The notes under the pieces were generated by a model, which was given only the letters and a program-made list of their open reading frames with translations, had not been told where the DNA came from and did not search any database. A stretch of 64,000 nucleotides of DNA from Deltaproteobacteria bacterium (lineage in GTDB: Bacteria > Desulfobacterota > GWC2-55-46): NCBI GenBank assembly GCA_016234935.1, contig JACRNL010000011.1, forward strand, positions 62,001 through 126,000. Reading direction: 5' to 3'. Made by a program: the position numbers and the translations under genes. Numbering within the stretch: the stretch's first letter is position 1; the number at the start of each line of letters is the position of its first letter. Positions 4,692 to 63,322 of the stretch are shown here, piece by piece.

Positions 4692-4819
4692 AGCAGGTTG
4701 CTCAAAACGCCCCAGCTACAAGGCGACGAGGAGCGAAGAACGGAGGCGTGCTTTTGGGCACGTCGCAGTGATGAGTGACGAAGGCAACGCGGTAGATGGG
4801 GCGTTTTCAGCAGCCTGCT
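4692..4819. mobile_element. MITE-like element, family C copy 1
   Basis: Imperfect terminal inverted repeats: GGTTGCTCAAAACGCCCC on the left and GGGGCGTTTTCAGCAGCC on the right. The centre has a hairpin GCGTGC-TTTTGG-GCACG. It lies between scpA and scpB without disrupting either. Related copies are at 13488-13643, 24691-24880, 48215-48485 and 63170-63290; the last is nearly the same sequence in the opposite orientation. There is no coding capacity. Confidence 0.85.
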
Positions 4820-4833
4820 AAGTGAAGAGAGAC

Positions 4834-13487: not shown

Positions 13488-13643
13488 ACAGGCTGCGGAA
13501 AAACTCAAAATCTGGTCAGGCTGCTCAAAAAGTTCCAGATGCAAGGCGTCGAGGAGTGAGGAGCGAGGCGCACTTTGTTGTGCGCCGTTCGTTCCGAACG
13601 ACGAAGACAACGCCGCAGATGGGACTTTTTCAGCAGCCTGTTA
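13488..13643. mobile_element. MITE-like element, family C copy 2
   Basis: Left end ACAGGCTGCGGAAAAACTCA, an inner TCAGGCTGCTCAAAAAGT, and right end ACTTTTTCAGCAGCCTGT. The central hairpin is GCGCAC-TTTGTT-GTGCGC. Compared with copy 1 (GCGTGC/GCACG), both arms have changed together, which keeps the stem. It lies just upstream of the ABC-F gene and creates a false N-terminal extension of that reading frame. Confidence 0.85.
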
Positions 13644-13666
13644 ATAAATTCGGCGCACGGGGACAG

Positions 13667-15568: not shown

Positions 15569-15580
15569 GAAACTCGTAGT

Positions 15581-15598
15581 GCGAGGCTTTAGCCTCGC
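15581..15598. repeat. Hairpin repeat D1
   Basis: GCGAGGC-TTTA-GCCTCGC. Other copies are at 26195-26212, 26246-26263, 42443-42460 and 48259-48276. It is the first element of the 15569-15962 gap, which holds only repeats. Confidence 0.8.
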
Positions 15599-15662
15599 TT
15601 TGTCGGCAATCAGGCAAGGGTGCTGCAAAACAGCTCGGTAGAAGTCTCGCACTACTTTCCGT

Positions 15663-17832: not shown

Positions 17833-19656
17833 ATGGCAGAGCGCGCGCATAAGCAGAACCGTCTTATCAACGAGAAAAGTCCGTACCTGCGCCAGCACGC
17901 GGAAAACCCGGTGGACTGGTATCCATGGTCGGATGAGGCGATTGAAAGGGCAAGGCGCGAGGACAAGCCCATGCTCGTCAGCATCGGGTATTCGAGCTGT
18001 CACTGGTGCCACGTGATGGAAAGGGAGTCCTTCGAGGACGCTGATACGGCGCGGATAATGAACGAGAACTTCATTAATATAAAAGTGGACAGGGAAGAGA
18101 GGCCTGACATAGACAGCCTCTACATGAAGGCCGTGCAGGCCATGACCGGAAGCGGCGGATGGCCGCTGAATGTGTTTACCACGCCGGACGGTGTGCCTTT
18201 TTTCGGCGGGACATATTTTCCTCCGGATGAGAATTACGGCATGGCGCCTTTTAAAAAAGTGCTTCTGGCCGCAAGCGAGGCGTACAGGAAGAATAAGGCG
18301 AGGATAGACGCCGTTGGAAAGGATATAACCGAGGCGCTTGCGCACAGGAAGATTACGGAGCCGGTCGCGATAAGCAGGGGTTTGGCGGATGCGGCTTTTG
18401 AAGCGGCAAGGCGGCGCTTTGACAATCTCTATGGCGGCTTTGGCTCCGGCGCGAAGTTTCCCCATGCCATGTTTTTAAAGTTTCTCTATATGTATTATAA
18501 ACGCACCGGCGAGCAGGAGGCCCTTGCCATTGTGAAAAAGTCCCTTTCGGCAATGGCGTCCGGCGGGATGTATGATCATCTTGGAGGCGGCTTCCACCGT
18601 TATTCAGTGGATGAGCGCTGGGAAGTGCCGCATTTTGAAAAGATGCTTTACGACAACGCGCTTTTGCTTGAGCTGTGCGCGTTCGCGCACAGGGGGACCG
18701 GTTTGGAGTTTTTTAAGGAAACCGCGCTTGAGACGGCAGACTATCTCTTCAGGGAGATGCGCGACCCGTCCGGCGGGTTTTACTCATCCCAGGATGCGGA
18801 CGTCGAGGGGGAGGAGGGCGGCTGCTATCTGTGGGACGCGGCTGAGATACGGGCGGTTTTGAGCGAGGCCGGCGCGAAAAGGTTCATGCGGTTTTTTTCC
18901 GTGACAGAAGAGGGCAACCTTGAAGGGAAGAACGTCCTGCGCATAGACAACTTCTTTAAAAGGCCGGGCGAACCGCTGCCCGAAGACATAAAAAACATGA
19001 AGAAGGTTCTGCTTGAGGCGCGCCTTAAAAGGCGGCGGCCAAATACCGACAAAAAGATAATCGCCGCGTGGAATGGCCTTGTGATAAGCGCCCTTGCGGA
19101 GGCTGGCCGCGCCTTCGGAAGAAAGGACCTTCTCGACGCCGCTGAAAAATGCGCCCGGTTCATCCTTGGCTCATTGAGGGATGAAGAAGGCAGGCTCTTT
19201 CGCTATCATCTCGGCGGCAAGGCCGGCGCGGCCGGCGGGCTTGAGGATTATGCGCTCACGGGATGCGCCCTGCTTTCGCTCCATGATGCCACAGGAGAGG
19301 AAATATGGCTCAAGGAGAGCCTTGGATTGGCCCGGACGATGACAGACCTTTTTTATGACAGCGGCGAGGCCCTGTTTTTCGACTGCGCCTCAGACCGCAA
19401 GGGGTTGAACCCCTTCAAGGGGCTGTTCGTCAGGGAAAGAGACCTTTTTGACAATGACGTGCCTTCAGGCAACTCCGCCGCGGCGGAGCTGTTTCTAAGA
19501 CTTTCCGTACTTGCCGGCAATAACGCATACAGGGCAATGTCCGAGGAGATACTTAAGTCGGTTGAAGGCATAAATGAAGAGCCCATTATGTACGGGAATT
19601 TCCTGTGCGTTCTTGAAAGGTTTTTAAGCGTAAGGGAACTTCCCGTGCGTTCCTGA
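17833..19656 (+). CDS. Thioredoxin-domain protein, YyaL/SSP411 (DUF255) family
   Basis: About 607 residues. The N-terminal thioredoxin-like domain contains [16 protein letters not shown], the hallmark of DUF255, and [16 protein letters not shown]. The rest is an alpha-alpha barrel like N-acylglucosamine 2-epimerases ([27 protein letters not shown]). The precise reaction of this family is not established. A family A palindrome (19401-19422) is inserted in frame as [12 protein letters not shown]. The 3' end lies in a tandem 40-bp repeat, which sets the last residues (PVRS). No clear Shine-Dalgarno precedes 17833. Confidence 0.9.
19401..19422. repeat. Palindromic repeat A2, inside the YyaL-type CDS
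   Basis: GGGGTTGAACCCC followed by TTCAAGGGG, the exact reverse complement of A1. Read here as K-G-L-N-P-F-K-G without breaking the frame. Confidence 0.9.
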
Positions 19657-19711
19657 AAGGTTTTTAAGCATAAGGGAACTCCCGTGCGTTCCTGAAAGTT
19701 TTTTAAGCGGC
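19605..19711. repeat. Tandem ~40-bp repeat, 2.7 copies, at a gene 3' end
   Basis: Units start at GTGCGTTC at 19605, 19645 and 19684 (periods 40 and 39). Each reads GTGCGTTC(C/T)TGAAAG followed by TTTTTAAGC; the first two continue TAAGGGAACT. Because 40 is not a multiple of 3, the second unit is read in a new frame and stops at TGA 19654. Confidence 0.9.
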
Positions 19712-24030: not shown

Positions 24031-24702
24031 ATGGCTGATATTTTTAAAGGCTCGCCGCTTTACCTCGTGACGGACAGGCGGCTTTGCAAGGGCAAGGGGT
24101 TGAACCCTCTCAGAGGGTTGAACCCTTTCAAAGGGCTTGTTGCCGCAGTGGAAAAGGCAGTCAGCGCGGGCGTAAGGTTTGTTCAGCTCAGGGAAAAGGA
24201 TTTACCGGCTGGCGAGCTGCTTGCCGTTGCCATGGAGCTCCGCGCGGTTACGTCAAGGCGCGGCGCGATATTTATTATAAACGGCAGGCTTGACGCCGCG
24301 CTCCTTGCGGATGCCGACGGTGTTCATCTGGGGCAGGCTGATTTCGCGCCTGAAGACGCGCGGCCCTTTCTCGCAAAGGGTAAGCTCATCGGCGTTTCGA
24401 CGCATTCGCTGAAAGAGGCCCTGCAGGCCGAAGCAGACGGGGCTGACTACATCACCTTTGGCCCTGTCTGTCATACGCCCTCTAAGGCCGCCTACGGGCC
24501 GCCGGCAGGTTTTGTGGAATTGAAAAAGGCCGCGGACGCCGTTAAGATACCGGTCTTTGCGATAGGCGGCATGAAAAGAGAGACAATAAAAGATGCCCTT
24601 AGCGCAAGTGCAAAGGGCGTTGCCGTTATCACCGCGATACTTGACGGCAATGACGTCGGCGGCAATGTGAAAGAGTTGATGACGGAGCTAACAGGCTGCT
24701 GA
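24031..24702 (+). CDS. thiE: Thiamine-phosphate synthase
   Basis: Couples HMP pyrophosphate and thiazole phosphate. LYLVTDRR opens the barrel; VRFVQLREKDLPAGELL, ADGVHLGQADF, GVSTHSLKEA, YITFGPVCHTPSKA and VFAIGGM are conserved substrate and Mg sites. After the first strand a double family A repeat is inserted in frame (KGLNPLRGLNPFKG, 24096-24135), lengthening a surface loop. The last codons and TGA stop (T-G-C-stop) come from the left end of MITE copy 3. 223 residues. Confidence 0.95.
   Translation: MADIFKGSPLYLVTDRRLCKGKGLNPLRGLNPFKGLVAAVEKAVSAGVRFVQLREKDLPAGELLAVAMELRAVTSRRGAIFIINGRLDAALLADADGVHLGQADFAPEDARPFLAKGKLIGVSTHSLKEALQAEADGADYITFGPVCHTPSKAAYGPPAGFVELKKAADAVKIPVFAIGGMKRETIKDALSASAKGVAVITAILDGNDVGGNVKELMTELTGC
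24096..24135. repeat. Palindromic repeat A3 (two units), inside thiE
   Basis: GGGGTTGAACCC-TCTCAGAGGG joined to TTGAACCC-TTTCAAAGGG. The two units differ at paired positions (CTCTCAGAG versus CTTTCAAAG), so the stem is kept in both. Confidence 0.88.
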
Positions 24703-24880
24703 AAAAGTCCCATCTGCGGCGTTGTCTTTGTCATTCGTCACTGCGGCGCACAACAAAGTGCGCCTCGTTCCTCACTCCTCGACGCTTTGCATCTGGCTGG
24801 GTTCCCATTGCGTCTTTATTATTGCAATGGGAAGATTTGAGCAGCCTGACCATGTTTTGAGTTTTTTCGCAACTTGCTAA
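24691..24880. mobile_element. MITE-like element, family C copy 3 (long form)
   Basis: Left end ACAGGCTGCTGAAAAAGTCC, right part GATTTGAGCAGCCTGACCAT and outer end TTTTTTCGCAACTTGCTAA. Central hairpin GGCGCAC-AACAAA-GTGCGCC, then a segment CTGGGTTCCCATTGCGTCTT shared with copy 5 at 48405. It lies between thiE and thiC inside the operon and provides the thiE stop codon. Confidence 0.85.
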
Positions 24881-40286: not shown

Positions 40287-41399
40287 ATGAGTAAGACAAA
40301 AGAGCCTAAGGAGATAAAAAGGATACTCGTGAGGGCGCCTAATTGGATAGGCGACGCCGTCATGTGCCTTCCTGCGGTTGCCGCCCTGAAGGCGGCCTAT
40401 CCTGACGCCGAAATAACGGCGCTCACAAGGGGCAGGGCCGTGCCGGTCTTTGAAAATAATCCGGCCATAGCCGAGGTGATGGAATACGACGCCAACGGCA
40501 GACATAAGGGCGTGACCGGAAGGCTCCGGCTTAGAAAAGAGATAAAGGCGCGCGGTTTTGACATGGCCGTGCTTTTTCAGAACGCGTTTGACGCCGCGTT
40601 TGTCTCCTTTATCTCCGGCATACCTGAGAGGATCGGCTACGTAAGGGATTTAAGAAGGCGTTTCCTTACGAGGCCGGTAGCCGCAACGGCTGAGATAAAA
40701 AAAAGGCATCAAGTCTTTTATTATTTGAATATCATAAAGGAGCTTGACGCCGCGGAGGCCTCAAAGCCGCCGACGCCCGTTATCAGGCTTAAGGACGAGG
40801 AAATCAGATGGGCGGATGAGTTCCTCAGGCAAAACGGCATTAAAAAAGAGGCTGAACCCCCTGAGGGGGCTCAGCCCCTTCAAGGGGCGCTTATCGGCGC
40901 CGCCCCGGGGGCAAGCTACGGCCCGGCAAAGAGGTGGCCTGCCGCAGGCTTTGCCGAGGTATTAAGGCGCTTGTCAGAGGAATATAACGGAGTGCCGGTG
41001 ATCTTCGGCGGCGTGGACGATGCCGGGGCGTGCAGGGACGCGGCGGAGCTTATCGCCGGAAGGGTCATAAACCTCGCCGGCAGGACGACGCTGAGGCAGT
41101 GCATGGCGCTTCTTTCGCGGTTAAAGGTCTTTGTGACGAACGATTCGGGCCTCATGCACGTGGCGGCGGCCCTTGGCGTGCCAACCGTGGCCGTCTTCGG
41201 CTCAACGGACGCGGCGCTTACCGGGCCCGTGGGCAGGGCGGCAAGGGTGGTCGAAAAAAAGATAGAATGCGCCCCGTGCTTTAAACGTGAATGTGCGTAT
41301 GGCCATTACAGATGCCTGAAGGGCGTGGACGCCGCGGATGTAATAAAGGCGGCGCGTTCGCTTCTGAAAGAAGCCGGCAAGAACGGCGCCTGTGATTGA
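40287..41399 (+). CDS. waaF: LPS heptosyltransferase II (GT9)
   Basis: Adds the second heptose to the inner core from ADP-heptose. The GT-B N-domain opens RILVRAPNWIGDAVMCLPAV, typical of WaaF. The C-domain has the ADP-heptose site VTNDSGLMHVAAALGVPTVA and FGSTD. A family A repeat is inserted in the inter-domain region (AEPPEGAQPLQGALIGAAPG), directly before the conserved IGAAPGASYGPAKRWP strand. 370 residues. Overlaps the frame of waaC; a Cys-rich tail CAPCFKRECAYGHYRC follows. Confidence 0.93.
   Translation: MSKTKEPKEIKRILVRAPNWIGDAVMCLPAVAALKAAYPDAEITALTRGRAVPVFENNPAIAEVMEYDANGRHKGVTGRLRLRKEIKARGFDMAVLFQNAFDAAFVSFISGIPERIGYVRDLRRRFLTRPVAATAEIKKRHQVFYYLNIIKELDAAEASKPPTPVIRLKDEEIRWADEFLRQNGIKKEAEPPEGAQPLQGALIGAAPGASYGPAKRWPAAGFAEVLRRLSEEYNGVPVIFGGVDDAGACRDAAELIAGRVINLAGRTTLRQCMALLSRLKVFVTNDSGLMHVAAALGVPTVAVFGSTDAALTGPVGRAARVVEKKIECAPCFKRECAYGHYRCLKGVDAADVIKAARSLLKEAGKNGACD
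40851..40888. repeat. Palindromic repeat A5, inside waaF
   Basis: GGCTGAACCCCCTGAGGGG joined to GCTCAGCCCCTTCAAGGGG. Read as E-P-P-E-G-A-Q-P-L-Q-G-A. Confidence 0.88.
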
Positions 41400-41419: not shown

Positions 41420-42454
41420 ATGAAGGTATTAATAATAAAATTGTCGTCCATCGGCGACGTCGTTCAGACGCTGCCCGCGCTCTACGCGCTTAGGAAGGGC
41501 TTTGAAAAAAAGGGGGTCAAGGCCCGGATAGATTGGCTTGTGGAGGAGGCCTCCTCGGCGGTCATTTCGGGAAATCCGCTTATTGATAATGTCATCATTG
41601 TCAAGAACCGGGGATGGAAGACGCATTTTATTGAAAATATAAGGACCGCGCGCATGCTGGCCTCGGTCCGCTATGACATGGTGCTGGACTTTCAGGGGCT
41701 TTTGAAAAGCGGCGTGTGGGTCTGGCTCTCAAAGGGCAGGCGCAGGATCGGCTTTTCAAACGCGAGGGAGCTGAGCCATATTTTCCTGAACGAAAAGGCC
41801 GCGCCCTATGACCCTGACAGGCACGCGGTTGACAGATACCTTGATCTGGCCGTATACGCCGGCGGGGAAAGCGGCGAGGCTGTTTTTCCGCTGCACATAA
41901 GCGGACAGGAAAGAAAGAAGGCTGAAGGCATCCTGAAGGGCGGCGGCATATCCGTCAGGACGCCCTTTTTCGTGATAGCCGCGCGCGCGAGGTGGCGGAC
42001 AAAGCACTGGAACGACGACGCCTTTGCCGGGGCGGCAAAGGCCATAATTGAAAAAAGAGGCATGCACGCCGTGCTCATAGGCGGCAGGGCCGACAAAGAC
42101 GGGCTTGACGGTCTAAAAGAGCGCATAGGAAAAATGGCCGTAAACCTCGCGGGACAAACGACGCTAAAGGAGCTTGCGGCGCTTGAGAAGATGTCAAGGT
42201 TCGTCCTCACCGTGGATTCCGGCCCAATGCACATAGCCTCGGCAGTCGGCGCAAAGACGGTCGCGCTCTTTGGCCCCACCGCGCCGTGGAGGACGGGGCC
42301 TTACGGCAGGCAGCACATAATAATAAGAAAAGAATTGAAATGCTCGCCATGCTTTAAAAAGAGATGTTCCGGGGCAAGGTGCATGACGGAGATAACGGCT
42401 GAAGAGGTCGTCATGGCCGTTGATAAGATGCTCGAACGCAGCGCGAGACTTTAG
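41420..42454 (+). CDS. waaC: LPS heptosyltransferase I (GT9)
   Basis: Transfers the first heptose onto Kdo. Starts MKVLIIKLSSIGDVVQTLPA, the WaaC-type N-terminus; IDWLVEEASS and FQGLLKSGVWVWLS follow. The donor site is LTVDSGPMHIASAVGAKTVA, then FGPTAPWRTGPYG. A Cys cluster CSPCFKKRC is near the C-terminus. ATG 41420 is chosen by homology; the frame opens at 41396 within the waaF end. The TAG stop and last residues (SARL) lie inside hairpin D3. 344 residues. Confidence 0.92.
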   Translation: MKVLIIKLSSIGDVVQTLPALYALRKGFEKKGVKARIDWLVEEASSAVISGNPLIDNVIIVKNRGWKTHFIENIRTARMLASVRYDMVLDFQGLLKSGVWVWLSKGRRRIGFSNARELSHIFLNEKAAPYDPDRHAVDRYLDLAVYAGGESGEAVFPLHISGQERKKAEGILKGGGISVRTPFFVIAARARWRTKHWNDDAFAGAAKAIIEKRGMHAVLIGGRADKDGLDGLKERIGKMAVNLAGQTTLKELAALEKMSRFVLTVDSGPMHIASAVGAKTVALFGPTAPWRTGPYGRQHIIIRKELKCSPCFKKRCSGARCMTEITAEEVVMAVDKMLERSARL

Positions 42455-42528
42455 TCTCGCTTGACAGGACGGCGACACTGAAGCCTGCCCTTTGAAAGGG
42501 TTCAACCCTCGCATATCTGAAGCGGGGG
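42443..42528. repeat. Hairpin D3 (provides the waaC stop) and a composite A/B element
   Basis: 42443-42460 is GCGAGAC-TTTA-GTCTCGC; relative to D1 both arms changed at the same pair. 42488-42528 joins a family A half (CCCTTTGAAAGGGTTCAACC) to a family B half (ATCTGAAGCGGGGG). Confidence 0.8.
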
Positions 42529-44718: not shown

Positions 44719-44775
44719 TATCCGCGGGCCGGCAACACCGCTTGCGGGCCGGCAGGCCAACACCCCGCCCTGCCC

Positions 44776-44810
44776 TCCCCCGTGAAGGGGCTCAGCTCCC
44801 TCAGGGGGGG
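44776..44810. repeat. Palindromic repeat A7, intergenic
   Basis: CTCCCCCGTGAAGGGGCTCA followed by GCTCCCTCAGGGGGGG. It lies between the GT39 and GT2 genes. Confidence 0.75.
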
Positions 44811-44876: not shown

Positions 44877-45839
44877 GTGGAGTTCAGGAAAAGTTCAGAA
44901 GAGACCGTTTCCATAGTAATTCCGGTATTCGAGGAGGAAGAGAGTCTGCCGCACCTTTATAAGTCCATAAAGGCCGTGATGGACGCCGTCCCGAACAAAT
45001 ACGAAATCGTCTTTGTCGACGACGGCAGCAAGGACGGCACGATGAAGGTCCTTGAAGAGCTTCACGCGAAGGACAAGAACGTCGTGGTCGTAGCCTTCAG
45101 GCGGAACTTCGGCCAGACGGCCGCGATGGCCGCGGGGTTTGAGTACGCGCAGGGCGATATCATCATCACGATGGACGCGGATCTGCAAAACGACCCGAAA
45201 GACATTCCGAAGTTTCTTGAGAAGATAAAGACCTGCGACGTGGTGAGCGGCTGGAGGAAGAACAGGCAGGATAAGTTCATCTCCAGAAGGCTCCCCTCGA
45301 TGATAGCCAACGGCCTCATATCAAAGGTCACCGGCGTGCGTCTGCATGATTACGGATGCACGCTCAAGGCTTATAGAAAAGAGGTCATAAAGAACGTCAG
45401 ACTCTACGGCGAGATGCACCGTTTCATCCCTGCGCTGGCGAGCTGGGTGGGCGCTTCGATAGAAGAGGTTGAGACCGCGCACCACGCCAGACAGTTCGGC
45501 AGATCGAAGTACGGTATTTCAAGGACGGTGCGCGTGATACTCGACCTTATCACCGTAAAGTTCCTTCAGAGCTTTTCCACGCGGCCTATCCACGCCTTCG
45601 GGGGGCTGGGCATGGGGTTTGGGCTTGCCGGCTTTTTGATAGGGCTTTACTTGAGCATCCTGAAGATCTTTTTCGGTCAGAGCATAGGCGCAAGGCCGCT
45701 TCTTTTCCTGGGGGTTCTCCTTATCATCATCGGCGTTCAGCTCGTCGTCATGGGGCTTCTTGGCGAGATGCTCGCCCGCGTCTACCATGAATCACAGGGT
45801 AAACCCATATTCACGGTGAAAAAGGTCTTGAAACGGTAA
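44877..45839 (+). CDS. GT2 polyprenyl-phosphate sugar transferase (ArnC/DPM-like)
   Basis: Catalytic domain: VSIVIPVFEEEESLPHLY, YEIVFVDDGSKDGTMKVLEE, and the Mg site ITMDADLQNDPKDIP (DxD). Two C-terminal membrane helices (LGMGFGLAGFLIGLYLSILK, LLFLGVLLIIIGVQL) fit the ArnC/GtrB group, which loads sugars on undecaprenyl phosphate. The long frame from 44715 runs through repeats; GTG 44877, 7 bases after GAGAGGA, is the best start (TTG 44862 is an alternative). 320 residues. Confidence 0.9.
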   Translation: MEFRKSSEETVSIVIPVFEEEESLPHLYKSIKAVMDAVPNKYEIVFVDDGSKDGTMKVLEELHAKDKNVVVVAFRRNFGQTAAMAAGFEYAQGDIIITMDADLQNDPKDIPKFLEKIKTCDVVSGWRKNRQDKFISRRLPSMIANGLISKVTGVRLHDYGCTLKAYRKEVIKNVRLYGEMHRFIPALASWVGASIEEVETAHHARQFGRSKYGISRTVRVILDLITVKFLQSFSTRPIHAFGGLGMGFGLAGFLIGLYLSILKIFFGQSIGARPLLFLGVLLIIIGVQLVVMGLLGEMLARVYHESQGKPIFTVKKVLKR

Positions 45840-45840
45840 C

Positions 45841-45978
45841 GGCTTGAAGGGGCTCAGCCCCCTCAGGGGCCGAGCCCCTTCAAGGGGTTTGACCCCCCGC
45901 GCGGCGCGCCGCCTTAAACACGCAGGAATGACAGGAAAAATGTCATTCCTGCCTGCCCTCGCGTGCTTGAAGCGGGGG
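45841..45978. repeat. Composite A and B repeat cluster
   Basis: Family A units (CTTGAAGGGGCTCAGCCCCC, TCAGGGGCCGAGCCCCTTCA) followed by a B-related CGCGCGGCGCGCCGCCTTAA, a 10-bp hairpin AGGAATGACA/TGTCATTCCT, and B5 (45952-45978, CCTGCCCTCGCGTGCTTGAA). Both families next to each other between two genes. Confidence 0.8.
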
Positions 45979-48216: not shown

Positions 48217-48485
48217 CAGGCTGCTGAAAACATGTCCTCGCAGGCTTTAAGCGGGGAAGCGAGGCTGAAGCCTCGCACTACGATATATGACTCTTGACAA
48301 CACAGTTGCTCATTCGTTGCTTCCTCCCCAGCACCACTTTCTGCCTCATATATTTGGGATGTGGCGTTAATTTATGCCAGAAAGTGGTGCTGGGCTTGCA
48401 TCTGGCTGGGTTCCCATTGCGTCTTTATTATTACGATGGGAAGATTTGAGCAGCCTGATTGGATTCATGTTTTTTAGTAACCTTC
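48215..48485. mobile_element. MITE-like element, family C copy 5, interrupted by other repeats
   Basis: Left end AACAGGCTGCTGAAAACATG; right end GATTTGAGCAGCCTGATTGG. Inside are a B fragment (CAGGCTTTAAGCGGGGAAG), hairpin D4 (48259-48276), and a separate inverted repeat with perfect 17-bp arms CCCAGCACCACTTTCTG (48327-48343) and its complement (48378-48394). The segment 48395-48460 matches the right part of MITE copy 3. Confidence 0.8.
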
Positions 48486-48517
48486 TAACGCATAAGCCCG
48501 GACGAGGCAGCATCAAG

Positions 48518-49714
48518 TTGAACGAATTCAAGGACGTAAAAAAGATACTTGTTATCAAGCTCCGGCATATCGGGGACGTGCTTTTGGCCGTTCCTGCCGT
48601 AAGGGCGCTTAAAGAGAGCTTTCCCGGCGCGCGGGTCTCGGCCCTCGTAAATTCCGGAACAGAAGACATGCTCACGTTAAATCCGCTCATTGAAGAGGTC
48701 ATTACGTTTAACAGGTCAGTCAAGGGCCTGTCCATCGCCGGCAGGACGCCTGCCCTCGCGTGCCTGAAGCGGGGGATGGGGGAGCTGAAGTTCGTTAAGG
48801 ATCTTCGCGCGCGCGGCTTTGACATGACGGTTGACCTTACCGGCGGCGACAGGCCGGCGCTCATGGGCTTTCTCATCGGCGCGCGGTACCGCCTCGGCTG
48901 CGACCCGATGGGCAAGGGGTTTGCCGGAAAAAAATATCTATACACCCACCTCGCCGGAAGGCCGGCGGGCAGGTTGCATACGGTCTTAAGAGACCTGGCC
49001 CTTGTCAGGAGCTTTGGTATTGACACGGCGGATCTCACGGTGGACATCTTCACCTCTGCCGCGGACGATTCATTTGTCAAAAGGCTTTTGGAGGAAAATG
49101 GCGTTAAGCCCCTTGAAGGGGTTCAACCCCCTGAGGGGGTTCAACCGGGCGAGCCTTTCGTCCACGTGCATCCGACCTCGCGCTGGTTCTTTAAGTGCTG
49201 GAAGGATGAGGCAATGGCCGAGGTCATGGACATGCTCCAGATGAACGGCTTTAAGACCGTGATCACCGCCGCGCCGGACGACAGGGAGATGAAAAGGGCA
49301 GCGTCCGTCATTTCGCGCATGAGGACCCGCCCGATAGACCTTTCAGGCAAATTGAATTTAAAGCAGATGGCGGCGCTTTCAAGGTCGTCCGTGATGTTTT
49401 TAGGGGTTGACTCCGCCCCCATGCACATAGCCGCCGCGTGCGGCGCGCGGGTCGTCGGCATATTCGGCCCGTCGGGCGCGTTCGACTGGGGGCCGTGGGA
49501 CAACAAGGCGGCCAGTGAAGACCCGTCTGCGGCCTATCCGCAAAAAAACGGCGTTCAGTGTTTCGGCGCTAATACGGTGATCCAGAAGGACTGGGACTGC
49601 GTCCCCTGCGGCAAGGACGGATGCAAAGGCACGAAAAAGAGCGACTGCCTTGACGCCATCGAGGCGGCCGAGGTCTGGAAGATGTTGAAAGACAAACTTG
49701 GCGTTGTGCGTTAG
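48518..49714 (+). CDS. GT9 heptosyltransferase, WaaQ-like
   Basis: VKKILVIKLRHIGDVLLAVP opens a GT9 fold; the donor site is LGVDSAPMHIAAACGARVVG and FGPSGAFDWGPWD. Resembles heptosyltransferase III (WaaQ). It carries both repeat families in frame: B6 as TPALACLKRGMGEL (48748-48775) and double A9 as KPLEGVQPPEGVQPGEP (49108-49146). The first ~30 codons of the open frame from 48374 lie in the MITE; TTG 48518 is the likely start (ATG 48467, inside the MITE end, is the alternative). About 398 residues. Confidence 0.88.
   Translation: MNEFKDVKKILVIKLRHIGDVLLAVPAVRALKESFPGARVSALVNSGTEDMLTLNPLIEEVITFNRSVKGLSIAGRTPALACLKRGMGELKFVKDLRARGFDMTVDLTGGDRPALMGFLIGARYRLGCDPMGKGFAGKKYLYTHLAGRPAGRLHTVLRDLALVRSFGIDTADLTVDIFTSAADDSFVKRLLEENGVKPLEGVQPPEGVQPGEPFVHVHPTSRWFFKCWKDEAMAEVMDMLQMNGFKTVITAAPDDREMKRAASVISRMRTRPIDLSGKLNLKQMAALSRSSVMFLGVDSAPMHIAAACGARVVGIFGPSGAFDWGPWDNKAASEDPSAAYPQKNGVQCFGANTVIQKDWDCVPCGKDGCKGTKKSDCLDAIEAAEVWKMLKDKLGVVR
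48748..48775. repeat. Palindromic repeat B6, inside a GT9 CDS
   Basis: GCCTGCCCTCGCGTGCC followed by TGAAGCGGGGG. Read as P-A-L-A-C-L-K-R-G. Confidence 0.88.
49108..49146. repeat. Palindromic repeat A9 (two units), inside the same GT9 CDS
   Basis: GCCCCTTGAAGGGGTTCAA joined to CCCCCTGAGGGGGTTCAACC. Read as P-L-E-G-V-Q-P-P-E-G-V-Q-P. Confidence 0.88.
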
Positions 49715-49799
49715 GGTGGGAGATGACCCTCTCCTTATCTCCTCCCCCTTCACGGGGGAGGGCAGGGTGGTGGGGGTGGGCGGGGGCTGAATAATAACA

Positions 49800-54832: not shown

Positions 54833-56061
54833 CGAAAAAGACGATAGCGATACTCGACACGGGCAGGGAATGGGGCGGCGGCACAAACAGCATGCTTGAG
54901 CTCGTGGCGAGGATTGACAAAAAGAGATACCGCTTAAAGGCCCTCTTTTATGATAATTATCCAAAGGGAAAATCCTCAACTGTCAAGGCAGAGCTTGAAA
55001 GGCTGGGCGTAGAATTCATACTGCTCAGGCGTCCCCAAAGGCTGCCTTATTCAAAGGCCGTGCGCGAGGCCGGAAGGGCGCTGTTTTTTTTCAGCCCTTC
55101 GCTTAAAAAGAGGTTTGTCTTTTCCCGCGATTACAGGGAAAGGATAGTTCCTGCGGCCATTGATATCGCGGATGTGCTGAAAAAAACCGGCGCAGACCTG
55201 CTTTATCTGAACAACCAGCCTTCTTCAAACCTCGAAGGCATACTGGCCGCCGGTTCCTTGGGTCTGCCCTGCGTTCAGCACTCAAGGGCGGTGGCGCGGC
55301 TGAACGCATCCGAGGCAGGGGCCGTGAACGCGGCCGTCTCAAAGATCATCTGCGTGTCAAGCGGGGTCAGGGACGCCCTCGTTGAAAGCGGGGTGGAGGC
55401 AGGCAGGTGCGTTGTCGTTTACAACGGGATAGACAAGGACGCCGGGCCGCTGCGGGATGCGCGGGAGGTGAGAAGTTCTCTTGGCATCGTCGCGGATACG
55501 TTTTTGATAGGCACGGTGGGTTCGCTTTTAAAAAGGAAAAGGACTGCCCTGCTCATTGACGCGCTGCCTTTTTTAAAAAAGGGCGGTAAAAATGCCTGCC
55601 CCCGCATGTCTTCAGCGGGGGTCAGATGCCTCATCGTCGGCGACGGCCCTGAGATGGTGCGGCTCAAGGAAAAGGCGAAAAGGCTCGGCGTGGAGGACAT
55701 GGTCGTGTTCGCCGGTTTTTCAAACGACGCCCTCTCGCTTGCAAACTGCCTTGACCTGTTCATTCTTCCCTCGGAGGGCGAAGGGCTTCCGCGCGTGATA
55801 CTTGAGGCCATGCTTTTGTCCAAGCCGGTCGTCGCCTTTGACGTAAGCGGCGTCAGAGAGGTCGTGGATGACGGCGTAACCGGCCTTATTTTGAAAAAAG
55901 AAGGGGGCGAGGCCATCGCCTCATCCGTAAAGGAATTAATGTCCGGCGCGGCGCGCATGAAGGCCATGGGCGAGGCGGGCAGGGCGCGTGTCATAAAGGA
56001 GTTCGCAATAGACAGATACGCCGCCGGGGTAATGCGGGTCTTTGAAGAGGTAGTCCCTTGA
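54829..56061 (+). CDS. GT4 glycosyltransferase
   Basis: N-domain TIAILDTGREWGGGTNSMLE; C-domain FLIGTVGSLLKRKRTALLID, LIVGDGPEMVRLKEKAK and donor site FILPSEGEGLPRVILEAMLL. 410 residues. Family B repeat B9 lies in frame as KNACPRMSSAGVRC, in the loop between two Rossmann strands of the C-domain, directly before LIVGDGP, so the protein must tolerate a longer loop there. Confidence 0.9.
   Translation: MTKKTIAILDTGREWGGGTNSMLELVARIDKKRYRLKALFYDNYPKGKSSTVKAELERLGVEFILLRRPQRLPYSKAVREAGRALFFFSPSLKKRFVFSRDYRERIVPAAIDIADVLKKTGADLLYLNNQPSSNLEGILAAGSLGLPCVQHSRAVARLNASEAGAVNAAVSKIICVSSGVRDALVESGVEAGRCVVVYNGIDKDAGPLRDAREVRSSLGIVADTFLIGTVGSLLKRKRTALLIDALPFLKKGGKNACPRMSSAGVRCLIVGDGPEMVRLKEKAKRLGVEDMVVFAGFSNDALSLANCLDLFILPSEGEGLPRVILEAMLLSKPVVAFDVSGVREVVDDGVTGLILKKEGGEAIASSVKELMSGAARMKAMGEAGRARVIKEFAIDRYAAGVMRVFEEVVP
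55594..55622. repeat. Palindromic repeat B9, inside a GT4 CDS
   Basis: GCCTGCCCCCGCATGTC followed by TTCAGCGGGGG. Read as A-C-P-R-M-S-S-A-G. Confidence 0.88.
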
Positions 56062-57248
56062 TATACGTCCTGCTGGCATACATATCGTATCCGCTGGTTT
56101 TTTTGATGTCTAAACTCTCCGGTCCCCGCTTTAGCCTGCCCCTTGAAGGGGTTCAACCCCCGCGCGTTTTAAGCGGGGGGCGCGCGAGGGCAGGCGGCGC
56201 GCAAGGTGAATCCTTCGTCGTATTCCAGACCGCGAAGCTTGGCGACATGATATGCAGTACGCCCGTGTTCAGGGAGATAAAGCGGGCCTATCCCGCAAGC
56301 CGCCTCGGCGTTGTCATCCACCCGGCAACGCGTCCGCTTTTAAAGCATAATCCTCATATTGACGAGATAATCGAATTCGACCCAAGGCTCTACCGCGGCG
56401 TCGCCGGAAAGATCAGGTTTGCCTTTGCCCTCGGAAAGAGGGGATATTCATCCGCGCTGATACTCATGCCGAATGCGGCGAACATACTTGCCGCATTCTG
56501 GGCATTGATACCAAAGAGGGTTTGCGTATATCCGAATTTTACAGGCCCGACCCTGAGGCGGCTCCTCGCCCTTAACACGCATCTTGAGTATCACGGCGAA
56601 GGCCGCATGTCTATGGAGACGTATCTTGGCGCGCTCCGGCAGTTCGGGATAAAAAACTGCGGCATGCAAAAAGAGGTCTATGCGCCGAAAGAGGCCGATG
56701 CAAAGGCCGCCGCCTACTTGAAGGGAGACGGCCCTTTTGCGGGCGTGGCCCCTGGCACGGCAAATGTCATGAAGGAATGGGGCAGGGAGAAGTTCCTTGA
56801 ACTCTCGAAAAGGATATCAGACGAGACAACGGCCACGGTAGTTGTCATTGGCTCTGAAAAGGAAAGGGCAGCCGGCGAGGAAATAGTGGGCGCATGCCGG
56901 GCATCCGGCGGCAGGCGGCGCGCGATAAACGCCTGCGGGGCTTTTTCGCTTGAGGAGGCCCCTGCGCTTTTAAAAAGGCTTTCCGTTGTCATAGGCGTTG
57001 ACACCGCGCTTATCTACATGGCCGACGCGCTTGACGTCCCGGCCGTTGACATTGCCGGGCCGTGCGACATGAACGACCAGAGGCCGATTGGCAAAGGCAG
57101 CGTTATCATCCAAAAAAAAAGCCTGCCATGCGTGCCGTGTTCGCACACCTTCCGCGTGCCGTATGAATGCCGGGAAGGGCACAGAAGTTGCGTGGCTGAC
57201 GTGACGGTGGAAGAGGTTTTTTCAGCCGCGGTAAAAATCATCCAATAG
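56058..57248 (+). CDS. GT9 heptosyltransferase-like protein
   Basis: Starts at TTG 56058, overlapping the previous stop. A hydrophobic N-terminus (YVLLAYISYPLVFLM) precedes the GT9 fold FVVFQTAKLGDMICSTPVFR; donor site VIGVDTALIYMADALDVPAV; Cys-rich CVPCSHTFRVPYEC. Between the N-terminal helix and the fold lies a composite A+B element read in frame as PLEGVQPPRVLSGGRARAGG. 396 residues. Acceptor unknown. Confidence 0.87.
   Translation: MIYVLLAYISYPLVFLMSKLSGPRFSLPLEGVQPPRVLSGGRARAGGAQGESFVVFQTAKLGDMICSTPVFREIKRAYPASRLGVVIHPATRPLLKHNPHIDEIIEFDPRLYRGVAGKIRFAFALGKRGYSSALILMPNAANILAAFWALIPKRVCVYPNFTGPTLRRLLALNTHLEYHGEGRMSMETYLGALRQFGIKNCGMQKEVYAPKEADAKAAAYLKGDGPFAGVAPGTANVMKEWGREKFLELSKRISDETTATVVVIGSEKERAAGEEIVGACRASGGRRRAINACGAFSLEEAPALLKRLSVVIGVDTALIYMADALDVPAVDIAGPCDMNDQRPIGKGSVIIQKKSLPCVPCSHTFRVPYECREGHRSCVADVTVEEVFSAAVKIIQ
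56122..56198. repeat. Composite A+B palindromic element, inside a GT9 CDS
   Basis: CCCCGCTTTAGCCTG, then A-unit CCCCTTGAAGGGGTTCAACC, then CCCCGCGCGTTTTAAGCGGG and GCGCGCGAGGGCAGGC. A B element appears split by, or fused to, an A unit. Confidence 0.82.
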
Positions 57249-57256
57249 GGATTGTA

Positions 57257-58528
57257 ATGGGTTTGACTAAAGAAAGACAGATTGAATACATCGACGCGGC
57301 GATCCTCTGGTGCTTCACGGGACTTGTCGTCGTGCTGCCGATTGCCCACGTCATCACGGTGCGCGAGTTTCTCATCTACATCCCGGTGGCGCTCTGGCTC
57401 TGCAAGATGGCGCTCAAAAGAGGGCCGGTCTTCGCGGACAACCATCTGATTCTGCCCATGCTCCTATTTGCCTTTGTTGCCGCGCTCTCGCTCTTCACGG
57501 CGGTCGACTTCGATTACAGCCTCCGCCAGTTCCTGTCGAAGTTGACCGTTGACTTCATGCTTTTCTTTCTTGCCTTCAACAACGTGCGGGAGATTAAGGA
57601 CGTCCGAAAAATCCTGTTTGCCCTTATTATAGGCTCCACTGCCCAGGGCGTTTACAGTTTTGCCAGGTTCTTTTTCATTGATAACGGCAGCCTCGCGAGC
57701 TTCGCCGTGAAGGCCGGCGGTCTTACGGGCGGCTACATCACATACAGCGTGCTCATTATCACCGTTTTGCCGTTCATCGCGTATATGGTTCTCACCTCCG
57801 CCGGCGGCAGCAGGCGGCTTTTTTTCGCGGCCCTCCTGCTCTTTAACACGTTCATGCTTTATCTGACCTTTCAAAGGGGGGCGCTCGTGGCGCTCTTCGT
57901 GCAGGTGATGATATTCCTCGGATTTTTGCGCCGGTGGTGGATATGCGCCGCGCTTGCGGCCGCGGTGGTCCTGGCCGTTTACGCGCTGCCCGCAAACCTC
58001 GTCTATCACGGCTCCAAGGGGGTGGATCTCGGAAACGAGAAGATAAGGGATTACGGCAATACTATAAACAGCCGCGTCGCGGTGTGGAAGTTCGCGTTAA
58101 GGGAGATAGCGGAGCATCCATTTAAGGGCGCGGGTCTGGGCAGATACTCCTTTGCAGCCAGGCACAGCCAGTTCAGACGCACGGATCTATGGCACGCGCA
58201 TAATACTTTTCTGAACACGGCCGTGCAGCTCGGCCTGCAGGGGCTTGCCGCGCTGCTCTTTGTCCTCTGGAGGGTGGGGCGGACGCACTGGCTCGGCGTT
58301 AAGGAAAGTGAAGGGGACGCGCGGATATTCTTTATGGCGTCTTTTGTTTTTATTTCCGGTTTCTTTGTGAGGAATATGTTCGATGACCTCTTCGTGGACG
58401 ACAATTCCGAGATGTTCTGGTTTTTGACCGGCCTTGCCTTTGCCGTGTTTCTGAGGTTTGAGAGGCTTTCTTACAAAGGCGTGTTTTCTAAATGCCCGGC
58501 AGCGCGCGTAAAAGAGGGGCGTGAATAA
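57257..58528 (+). CDS. waaL: O-antigen ligase family protein
   Basis: 423 residues with about 11 membrane helices. The long periplasmic loop ends in LWHAHNTFLNTAVQLGLQGL, the His-containing ligase signature (H-N-x-F/Y-L). An Arg-rich LYLTFQRGALVALFVQ segment is also conserved in Wzy/WaaL proteins. Expected to join a polyprenyl-linked glycan to the core; related polymerases look alike, so WaaL versus Wzy is not certain. Overlaps the next GTG start by 8 bp. Confidence 0.85.
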   Translation: MGLTKERQIEYIDAAILWCFTGLVVVLPIAHVITVREFLIYIPVALWLCKMALKRGPVFADNHLILPMLLFAFVAALSLFTAVDFDYSLRQFLSKLTVDFMLFFLAFNNVREIKDVRKILFALIIGSTAQGVYSFARFFFIDNGSLASFAVKAGGLTGGYITYSVLIITVLPFIAYMVLTSAGGSRRLFFAALLLFNTFMLYLTFQRGALVALFVQVMIFLGFLRRWWICAALAAAVVLAVYALPANLVYHGSKGVDLGNEKIRDYGNTINSRVAVWKFALREIAEHPFKGAGLGRYSFAARHSQFRRTDLWHAHNTFLNTAVQLGLQGLAALLFVLWRVGRTHWLGVKESEGDARIFFMASFVFISGFFVRNMFDDLFVDDNSEMFWFLTGLAFAVFLRFERLSYKGVFSKCPAARVKEGRE

Positions 58529-59579
58529 GATTCTCTTCATACGCCGTGACAACATCGGCGATCTCGTCTGCACGACCCCGGCGATAAGGGCCGTCCGCCT
58601 TAAATTTCCCCAGGCGCGGATAGCCGTCCTTGTTAATTCCTACAATGCGGGGGCGGTCGCTGATAATCCCGACATAGACGAGGTATATGTCTATGAAAAG
58701 GAGAAGCACGCGCTTTCAAAGGGCAGGCTCCGGGTGTTTATGGAAAACCTCGGCGTCATAAGGCGCATCAGGAAAGAAAGGTTTGACGCCGTTGTCGGCT
58801 GCGGTTACGGATACTCGGCAAGGGTCGCGCGGTTTGCCTGCTTGACCGGCGCCGGGCACAGGGCCGGTTTCGTTTCCGGCAAAAAGCCCATGTCGCGGTT
58901 TTTATACAACCTGCGCGCCGAGGAGCCGCAGGAGGCCATTCACGAGGTCGAGGCCGTGATGAGGCTTGTCGCGTTGCTCGGCGTAAGCGGCCCCGCTCCG
59001 CCGCTTTGCGTAAGGCCCTCTGAAGGCGAGGTGAAAAAAGTTATAAGCCATCTTAAGGGGTTGAACCCCCTCAGGGGGCAGGGATACGCGGGCAAGGCCG
59101 GGCTTGTGGTATTTCACATAAGCTCAAGGAAGCCCAAAAACAGATGGCCGAAGGAGAGTTTCAGGGAACTCGGCGGCATGATTCAAAAGGCAACCGGCGC
59201 CGAGATACTGCTGCTCTGGTCGCCGGGCTCTTTCGGCAACGTCCTGCATCCGGGCGATGACGAGGCGGCCGAATGGATGTCATTGTCAATGGATAAACGC
59301 CCTTTTACATTCAGGACAAAAAGCCTCGCGGAGCTTATCGCCGCCATGAGCCTTGCCTCATCCGTCGTGTGCTGCGACGGCGGGGCCATGCACATTGCCG
59401 CGGGCCTTGGCAAGCCCATTGTCACGGTATGGGGAACGACCGAGAGAAAAAGATGGGCGCCGTGGGGCGTGCCGCATGTCATCCTGCAAAAGGAAGACGG
59501 CCTTGCCTCCGCGGTCAACGCAAAGGAGGCGTTTGACGCGTTTATGGACCTTACGCACAGGGAAGGCAGCGGCAGATGA
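58521..59579 (+). CDS. GT9 heptosyltransferase-like protein
   Basis: GTG start. N-domain KILFIRRDNIGDLVCTTPAI, then VRLKFPQARIAVLVN; donor site VVCCDGGAMHIAAGLGKPIV and WGTTERKRWAPWG. Family A repeat A11 is in frame as LKGLNPLRGQGYAG (59056-59078), in the linker before LVVFHISSRKPKNRWP. 352 residues. The stop overlaps the following ATG. Confidence 0.9.
   Translation: MNKILFIRRDNIGDLVCTTPAIRAVRLKFPQARIAVLVNSYNAGAVADNPDIDEVYVYEKEKHALSKGRLRVFMENLGVIRRIRKERFDAVVGCGYGYSARVARFACLTGAGHRAGFVSGKKPMSRFLYNLRAEEPQEAIHEVEAVMRLVALLGVSGPAPPLCVRPSEGEVKKVISHLKGLNPLRGQGYAGKAGLVVFHISSRKPKNRWPKESFRELGGMIQKATGAEILLLWSPGSFGNVLHPGDDEAAEWMSLSMDKRPFTFRTKSLAELIAAMSLASSVVCCDGGAMHIAAGLGKPIVTVWGTTERKRWAPWGVPHVILQKEDGLASAVNAKEAFDAFMDLTHREGSGR
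59056..59078. repeat. Palindromic repeat A11, inside a GT9 CDS
   Basis: GGGGTTGAACCCCC followed by TCAGGGGG. Read as K-G-L-N-P-L-R-G. Confidence 0.88.
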
Positions 59580-60721
59580 GGATCGGCTTAATACGGATGC
59601 GCTACACCCCGTACGGCGGGGCCGAGGTCTTCATGGCCCGCTTCGTGGACGAGCTCTTGAGGCTCGGCCACACGGTAGACGTCTTTGCCGCGGACTGGCA
59701 GGAGAAAAAGGGCGTAGCCGTGCACAGGGTGAAGACATGGGGGCCGTCTTTTTTGAGGCCGCTTGTCTTTGCGGCTAACGCGGCAAAGGCGGTCGAAAGG
59801 GTCAGGCCCGACGTTGTCATAAGCCTTGAGAGGACGGCGTGCCAAGATATCTACCGGGCAGGCGACGGCGTCCACAAGGAGTGGCTTTTGCAAAGGAAAA
59901 AGGCGGCACAGGGATTGACAGCGGGACTAAAGGGCGTTCTTACCGGCCTTAACCCCCTGAGGGGGTTCAACCCCCTGCACGCGGTGCTCCTTAACCTTGA
60001 AAAAAGGCTCTTCAGCGATAAAAGGCTTAAAAAGGTCGTGGCGAATTCAAACAGGGTGAAGCAGGAGATAATAAGGCATTATGGTTTGCCTGAGAAAAAG
60101 ATATGTGTTATATATAACGGGATAAACGCGGATGAGTTCGCCGGGCGCGTAGCCGCCGCGGACAGGGCGGGCGTGAGGAAGGAACTCTCTGTTTCAGAGG
60201 ATGAATGCCTCCTTCTTTTCATCGGCTCAGGTTTTGAAAGAAAGGGCCTTGTCTACCTTATCCGCGCTTTAAAGCCTTTGATGGAGGCCGGTAAAAAACC
60301 AAGGCTGCTTGTCGTTGGCAAGGGGAGAGCGGCGGGATACCTGAAAGAGGCCGAGGCTCTGGGTGTAGCAGACAGGGTCATATTCAAGGGCGCGGTAAAG
60401 GATGCGGCAAGGTTTTACGCCGCGGCCGACATCTTTGTCCTGCCGAGCATCTACGAGCCGTTTTCTAACGCCTGCCTTGAGGCCATGGCCGCCGGTCTGC
60501 CTGTCGTCACTTCAAGGATAAACGGCGCGTCCGAGATAATAACCGAGCCGGTAAACGGCGCGGTCATTGAAGAGCCGGCGGACCACCTTGAAATAGCAAA
60601 AAAAATCGCCTTCTTCCTTGATGGACAAAAGAGAAAGCTCTCAGGCGAGGCCGCGAGGCGGACTGCCTTTGAATATACCATAGAGAAAAACGTGAGCGAA
60701 TTTCTGAGGTTGATAGTCTGA
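59576..60721 (+). CDS. waaG: LPS core glucosyltransferase WaaG-like (GT4)
   Basis: RIGLIRMRYTPYGGAEVFM opens the fold; VISLERTACQDIYRAGDGVH is characteristic of WaaG, which adds glucose to the second heptose. C-domain LLFIGSGFERKGLVYLIRAL, LLVVGKGRAAGYLKEA, donor site FVLPSIYEPFSNACLEAMAA (E-x7-E). Family A repeat A12 is in frame as TGLNPLRGFNPLHAV, at the inter-domain linker region before LLNLEKRLFSDKRLKKVVANS. 381 residues. Confidence 0.92.
   Translation: MRIGLIRMRYTPYGGAEVFMARFVDELLRLGHTVDVFAADWQEKKGVAVHRVKTWGPSFLRPLVFAANAAKAVERVRPDVVISLERTACQDIYRAGDGVHKEWLLQRKKAAQGLTAGLKGVLTGLNPLRGFNPLHAVLLNLEKRLFSDKRLKKVVANSNRVKQEIIRHYGLPEKKICVIYNGINADEFAGRVAAADRAGVRKELSVSEDECLLLFIGSGFERKGLVYLIRALKPLMEAGKKPRLLVVGKGRAAGYLKEAEALGVADRVIFKGAVKDAARFYAAADIFVLPSIYEPFSNACLEAMAAGLPVVTSRINGASEIITEPVNGAVIEEPADHLEIAKKIAFFLDGQKRKLSGEAARRTAFEYTIEKNVSEFLRLIV
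59951..59977. repeat. Palindromic repeat A12, inside waaG
   Basis: AACCCCCTGAGGGGGTTCAA followed by CCCCCTG. Read as L-N-P-L-R-G-F-N-P-L. Confidence 0.88.
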
Positions 60722-63169: not shown

Positions 63170-63290
63170 CGGCTGCTGAAAACGCCCCATCTACGTCGTT
63201 GTCCGCGTCGTTCGTCACTGCGGCGTGCCCAAAAGCACGCCTCATTCCTCTCTCCTTGACGCCTAGTAGTTGGGGCGTTTTGAGCAGCCT
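63170..63290. mobile_element. MITE-like element, family C copy 4 (inverse of copy 1)
   Basis: Left end CGGCTGCTGAAAACGCCCC, right end GGGGCGTTTTGAGCAGCC. Central hairpin GCGTGC-CCAAAA-GCACGC. Most of its length matches copy 1 (4692-4819) in the opposite orientation. It starts one base after the yicC stop. Confidence 0.85.
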
Positions 63291-63322
63291 TACCTTTGAG
63301 CAGGCCTATAAAAAGGCCCCAT

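Follow-up and report, generated by a model that had tools for sequence, protein, structure and literature searches.

Very small dispersed palindromes are common in bacteria, and we know of no explanation for how elements of 18-27 nt spread. The closest published kind to those considered here is the SDR elements of Nostoc; in Nostoc punctiforme and its relatives these were reportedly characterised by Elhai et al. in 2008 as hairpin repeats of 21-27 nt that are clade-dispersed, occupy precise sites and are in some cases nested in themselves. Another kind, the palindromic elements of Rickettsia and Wolbachia, lies in frame in protein-coding genes and is about 100 nt long or more. For one of the SDRs, SDR5, PMC4390886 gives the exact insertion point in HIP1, which lies between its nucleotides 3 and 4. 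Yeast mitochondria carry GC clusters, which PMC4478555 presents as mobile elements that are short, palindromic and GC-rich and end in direct repeats of AG or ACT; the most abundant is 42 nt long, and different clusters can merge.

The DNA analysed here (the window) is a stretch of 64,000 nt, positions 62001-126000 of contig C10 in a genome of 2.15 Mb and 15 contigs (G000), and positions given below refer to it unless a contig is named. A base-by-base scan covered 858,468 bases, or about 40% of the genome (C5 1-354468, C7 1-380000 and C10 22001-146000; the 858-kb sample), and genome-wide counts come from pattern searches of all contigs of G000. The overall account that we regard as probable is that tiny palindromic insertion elements have built a nest three layers deep in a gene for a GT9-type glycosyltransferase, putatively by a copying process guided by a tetramer.

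Short palindromic elements and their host genes

Element B is a hairpin repeat of 27 nt with the consensus CCTGCCCYCGCRYGYYTRAAGCGGGGG; the tetranucleotide CCTG stands at the foot of its hairpin, and it inserts without clear duplication. The full consensus has 153 genome-wide matches at up to 3 mismatches, against 0 in the control, and its 13-nt 5′ part has 224 at up to 1 mismatch, against 19 for the reversed control. Element E (CCTGCCCTCGAATGTYTCTATCGGGGG) is a cousin of B, also of 27 nt, in which one stem pair is altered and pairing is kept. Element A is an 18-nt repeat of the form YTGAR-rcN4-YTCAR-N4, which makes two overlapping triloop hairpins, and another copy of the tetramer N4 usually precedes it. 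This pattern is found 427 times genome-wide at up to 2 mismatches (0 in the control) and 246 times exactly, and stems of 5 bp that close a TGA or TCA triloop number 457 in the sample, against at most 43 for any other triloop and a median of 18 over all triloops.

Other repeats are present in the window as well. A hairpin repeat with an A-like stem, CCTGCCCTCCCCCGTGAAGGGGGAGGAG, lies at 44767-44800 and 49746-49766, and some of its copies elsewhere have extra A units; a further small palindrome, GCGAGGC-TTTA-GCCTCGC, is found at 15574-15600, 42440-42465 and 48257-48283, one copy being just upstream of the A-bearing B at 42484. A 40-nt unit occurs in three tandem copies at 19590-19708, and a longer dispersed repeat is represented by pieces of about 40-130 nt, 74-97% alike and in both orientations, whose ends resemble GAGCAGCCTG.

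Table 1. Features of the window, with contig positions (C10) in the last column where available
Feature	Position in window	Strand	Remarks
Longer dispersed repeat with GAGCAGCCTG-like ends	4695-4820, 13489-13644, 24689-24876, 48396-48458, 63171-63294		
A array, three hairpins, in gene 40287-41399	40857-40887	+	about 10-12 aa extra vs 7 orthologues
B, first 8 nt (CCTGCCCT), intergenic	42484-42491	+	C10 104484
A unit, CCCT type (TTGAA-AGGG-TTCAA-CCCT), inside the B at 42484	42492-42509	+	
B begun at 42484, remaining 19 nt	42510-42528	+	
A-like array, partly degenerate	45838-45897 (about)	+	B neighbour, unfused
Intact, uninterrupted B of the third cited locus	45952-45978	+	
Two A units, 36 nt, 12 codons in frame, in gene 48374-49714	49109-49144	+	12 aa added vs orthologues
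GT9-type glycosyltransferase ORF, TTG start, nest near N terminus, in frame	56058-57248	+	orthologues without the inserted stretch
Outer B, 3′ part, 12 nt	56123-56134	-	C10 118123; outer B has 1 mismatch to the 27-nt consensus
Inner B, first 8 nt (CCTGCCCC), in the loop of the outer B	56135-56142	+	C10 118135
A unit, 18 nt (TTGAA-GGGG-TTCAA-CCCC), inside the inner B	56143-56160	+	
Inner B, remaining 19 nt	56161-56179	+	
Outer B, 5′ part, 15 nt	56180-56194	-	
A unit, 18 nt, 6 codons in frame, in gene 58521-59579	59058-59075	+	6 aa added vs orthologues
A unit, 6 codons in frame, in gene 59576-60721	59957-59974	+	6 aa added vs orthologues

In the GT9 gene, 56123-56194 is a nest of 72 nt (27+27+18), in which a minus-strand B holds a plus-strand B in its loop and the latter holds one A unit; the A unit can also be parsed as 56139-56156, because CCCC is repeated. 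A preliminary description of this DNA had read 56122-56198 as B-like pieces with an A unit, and a base-by-base parse finds the letters as it gave them, but it missed that the pieces make up two whole copies of B in opposite orientation, one within the other. The gene stands as a case of A in B, but it also records a further, different event that had been overlooked, in which a forward B came to lie within the loop of a reverse B. The same description counted three joinings of A and B, two of which are junctions: besides the GT9 gene, the intergenic pairing placed at 42488-42528 is a true A in B (42484-42528), with an 18-nt insert at the same base, but at 45841-45978 the A-like array and the intact B are merely neighbours, separated by about 54 nt and not fused.

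Orthologues of the GT9 protein lack the stretch 56123-56194, which is thus an in-frame insertion: the protein has about 24 aa more than its orthologues, matching the 72 nt, although the linker concerned varies in length. Its named relatives belong to groundwater MAGs labelled Deltaproteobacteria and are 51-55% identical to it. Comparison with orthologues finds in-frame insertion in four other coding genes (Table 1). The inserts at the insertion sites of A, B and E are all multiples of 9 nt, so that genes remain in frame. In gene 59576-60721 of G000, 18 nt separate AACCCC from CTGCAC, whereas in the orthologue L062 CTTCAT comes immediately after AACCCC, and since this empty site has AACCCC with no A, its CCCC predates the arrival of A. 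More generally, orthologous empty sites agree with steps of 18 nt.

These comparisons bear on a non-mobile origin, in which independent C- or G-rich hairpins would be held by selection for transcription, mRNA structure or protein binding and would be alike by coincidence. The stems are indeed conserved with coordinated changes, but such an origin is most improbable given that insertion is evident from the orthologous empty sites, that the same genes in relatives are without A, that the whole GT9 nest folds as one structure no better than shuffles (z -0.41 as DNA, -0.62 as RNA), and that the ORF calls, which are crude and span 87-89% of the 858-kb sample, contain 68 of its 117 A chains and 26 of its 54 B copies. 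The lack of A in ORF frame 1 is trivial, since a stop sits in that frame.

Fixed junctions and nesting

Copies of B split by 8-110 nt were searched for at up to 2 mismatches, which returned 74 candidates, against 0 in each of six trials with a permuted consensus; many of the 74 are an intact B with a stray half, and only those with a recognised insert were used. Six of these are A in B, and in each of them 18 nt interrupt B at p=5-8, where its 5′ arm has the CCCY. Nine more carry B or E, inverted, within the B loop (p=15/16); their inserts measure 27 (six cases), 45, 63 and 72 nt, the last three of which decompose into 27+18 (the GT9 locus), 27+36 and 27+27+18. In two further cases a 27-nt B lies in another B in the same orientation, at a position that is ambiguous by several bases (p 13-18).

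The reverse test consisted of excising each A unit, joining its flanks and looking for a B or E host at up to 4 mismatches. A host was rebuilt for 18 of the 316 strand-counted units, which correspond to 9 loci in the 858-kb sample, whereas the excision of 18 nt after random CCCY sites rebuilt one in 11 of 8,260 cases. The junction is the CCCY of the 5′ arm at eight of the nine loci; the ninth lies elsewhere and is weak (4 mismatches, two units removed). Over the whole genome, the A-in-B junction pattern is matched exactly 14 times and nearly, at up to 3 mismatches, 68 times, while its reversed control finds 0 matches. A occupies 7.2% of the CCCY sites in B-type arms (12/167, one of the 12 not being a true B) compared with 0.64% elsewhere (100/15,662; odds ratio 12).

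A inserts into B at a fixed base, and a chance origin of the A/B nests is excluded. The preliminary description had suspected as much, proposing insertion over chance neighbourhood and suggesting a search for copies of B interrupted at the same base: the eight rebuilt loci and the 14 exact junctions bear it out, the interrupted base lies in the CCCY of the 5′ arm, and the scatter of junctions at random positions that would have told against the proposal is not what the rebuilt loci present. At the junctions of B itself, flanking arms that are complementary across the junction over at least 6 bp are found for 26 of 53 copies but at only 12.3% of 3,000 points chosen at random (odds ratio 6.9, p 1.3e-10), the hosts including B and other palindromes. 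B tends to enter loops, and A enters at CCCY.

B is also seen in other surroundings. At C7:346255, the only such case among 53 B copies, an A hairpin has B in its loop (CCCCTTG / B / AAGGGG), so that the nesting described above is turned round, and copies near the loops of two other palindromes are present at C5:262560 and C7:283766 and at C7:308155 and C10:96620, the palindromes hosting B being GTTCCC(A/G)CG..CG(T/C)GGGAAC and GTCATTCCCG..CGGGAAT.

As a history, nested and successive precise insertion is almost certain. In the GT9 gene the outer B would have come first, the inner B would have entered its loop, and A would then have entered the CCCY of the inner B. A single 45-nt composite of A and B, formed once and spread whole, would also give a fixed junction, which would then reflect one event. 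The loop pair TTGAA/TTCAA, which is present in all 11 isolated A units in B or E arms compared with 13 of 40 elsewhere (p 5e-5), points in this direction, as does the A part of the 14 exact junctions, which is identical save for a coordinated T/C. This uniformity cuts against many fully independent insertions of A into B or E, and it hints that some A-in-B composites share descent, or else that a sub-type of A was selected or prefers B arms. We nevertheless consider one composite unlikely as the general explanation, because the host loops and flanks vary widely, B and E both serve as hosts, the CCCT and CCCC hosts occur roughly in the proportion of empty arms, and some A-in-B copies contain further nested elements.

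Tetramer concordance and possible routes of copying

The inner tetramer of A is the reverse complement of the flanking tetramer (GGGG/CCCC, AGGG/CCCT). In a table of 84 isolated A units with closed loops, taken in the G-rich inner orientation, inner GGGG has CCCC as its left flank 35 times and CCCT once, and inner AGGG has CCCC 0 times and CCCT 21 times (Fisher p 1e-14); rarer tetramers (CCTG, ACCC, GCCC and CCGG) are also concordant, as are all 14 exact A-in-B junctions, 10 of them CCCT and 4 CCCC. Empty B arms have T in 48 cases and C in 13, and the 12 arms filled by A, of which one is not a B, have T in 8 and C in 4, so A seems indifferent to the variable base of B and yet in agreement with it. 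N4 occurs once in B, in the 5′ arm, which accounts for the fixed junction of A.

The agreement has exceptions, since A units beside CAAT, CATG, TGCG and CGGC retain GGGG..CCCC; the interior therefore does not copy the target in every case, and the match reflects a preference. Two stricter schemes were discarded, namely the strict templating of the interior of A by its target, which these same units rule out, and a reading in which A is 14 nt long and duplicates 4 nt of its target, which is ruled out because the flanks differ at one-sided sites. An anti-correlation links the base just after the right tetramer to the base that opens the first loop of A (2/15 vs 8/4, p 0.0045); in isolated A units, T goes with CTGAG and C with TTGAA.

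A is added in exact steps of 18 nt beside the tetramer N4, mostly CCCC or CCCT, and B and E are added as exact blocks of 27 nt, often into the loop of another hairpin, B included. For the specific mechanism behind the steps of A we tentatively favour tetramer-guided copying via an enzyme, the likeliest of the routes considered, its nearest rival being template switching at microhomologies. Each insertion would copy a resident A unit, with target and copy matched via the tetramer, as the internal rcN4 of A can in principle pair with the N4 of the target, and the copying may proceed through a single-stranded or folded DNA intermediate together with an enzyme. Against this route count the units whose interior does not follow the target, the uniform loop pair of the A units in B or E arms, the homology that stops at the tetramer, the anti-correlated base next to it, the negative searches for candidate enzymes given below and the lack of a replication-strand bias.

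In template switching, the nascent CCCC or CCCT end would pair during replication with the tetramer of a distant A, copy one 18-nt unit and return, without any transposase, and quasi-palindrome correction would then homogenise the arms. Such switching accounts for the exact 18-nt steps, for the concordant tetramers and for the absence of a known transposase, and PMC8604942 and PMC3820800 describe how template switching homogenises the arms of inverted repeats. It would, however, be expected to use longer matches, while past the tetramer the homology does not exceed that at random CCCY sites (left 0.325 vs 0.349, right 0.30 vs 0.44); it also leaves the 27-nt loop insertions of B unaccounted for, and about 400 relatives are without such an expansion. 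We therefore judge it somewhat unlikely and retain tetramer-guided copying as the preferred route.

A more far-reaching proposal is that A is an 18-nt mobile element which finds its targets through a 4-nt internal guide (rcN4) that co-changes with the target, the guides AGGG, GGGG, CAGG, GGGT and GGGC leading to CCCT, CCCC, CCTG, ACCC and GCCC sites, and which, by means of an undescribed kind of enzyme, has multiplied to hundreds of copies within a single lineage. In this full form the proposal is doubtful; if true, it would make A a mobile element smaller than the Nostoc SDRs.

Distribution and comparison with known systems

Among the 395 genomes searched, A is abundant only in this one: two of the 394 other genomes of the phylum have one exact match each, loose matches amount to 1-3 in 13 of 39 relatives, and the pattern CCCCYTGARGGGGYTCARCCCC has 0 matches among viral contigs. 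Elsewhere in the order, 7 of 47 genomes have B, at 1-9 copies each. A low-copy B in the order and an A that is abundant only here fit an older B and a younger A.

Single-strand transposition of the IS200/IS605 or REP type, in which a Y1 transposase reads a hairpin and a guide tetramer and leaves no target duplication, could also be thought of, as the concordant tetramers are reminiscent of the way in which base pairing guides IS608 (PMC5934647), and B has CCTG at its hairpin foot and inserts without clear duplication. But Y1_Tnp (PF01797) has 0 matches in this genome, which is 100% complete, while 5 of 14 control genomes were positive, and neither A (19/14 vs 72/46, p 0.84) nor B (p 0.77) has a replication-strand bias when set against GC skew, so we hold this route to be decidedly unlikely. 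Searches of the genome for reverse transcriptase (RVT_1, PF00078) and the IS110 DEDD transposase (PF01548) gave 0 matches, and that for Cas1 gave none. The lack of these four enzymes, together with the lack of a skew bias, argues that A and B are neither REP elements nor IS200/IS605 derivatives nor retro-elements.

The genome offers a countable record, in which nests give the order of events and A-free copies of B serve as built-in empty sites. The exact match between inner and target tetramer makes the targeting rule testable, and the small insertions add whole codons to many genes within one lineage. A limited literature search found no publication on nested 18- or 27-nt palindromes in this lineage, which does not prove that there is none.

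With REP and REPIN sequences and their TnpA_REP (RAYT) transposase, A and B share the character of high-copy palindromes, which in those systems are of 20-40 nt, and B shares the tetranucleotide at the hairpin foot. They differ in belonging to a genome without a Y1 transposase and in the intragenic position of many copies; the CCTG tag of B is, moreover, neither GTAG nor CGTC, the tag classes given in the part of PMC3733652 used here. In the IS200/IS605 family (IS608) a target tetranucleotide is likewise complementary to an internal guide, but what is seen here is the complementarity only, at the concordance given above, with no enzyme, no coding element and no strand bias. The in-frame insertion in the GT9 gene and four others recalls the palindromic elements of Rickettsia and Wolbachia, although the units here are far shorter, at 18 and 27 nt. 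Yeast mitochondrial GC clusters are similar in being short, GC-rich palindromes of which different clusters merge, and dissimilar in being organellar, in their AG or ACT terminal direct repeats and in the 42-nt length of the most abundant. With the Nostoc SDRs the present elements share dispersal within one clade and, in B, self-nesting at a precise site (nine cases in which the B loop holds B or E at p=15/16, and two of direct B-in-B); the 27 nt of B and E lie within the SDR range of 21-27 nt, with A at 18 nt below it. The present elements are set apart from the SDRs, as these are described, by another phylum and presumably other sequences, and A in particular by its 18-nt length, its target-matched tetramer, its in-frame presence in many genes and its fixed site in the arm of a second family, B.
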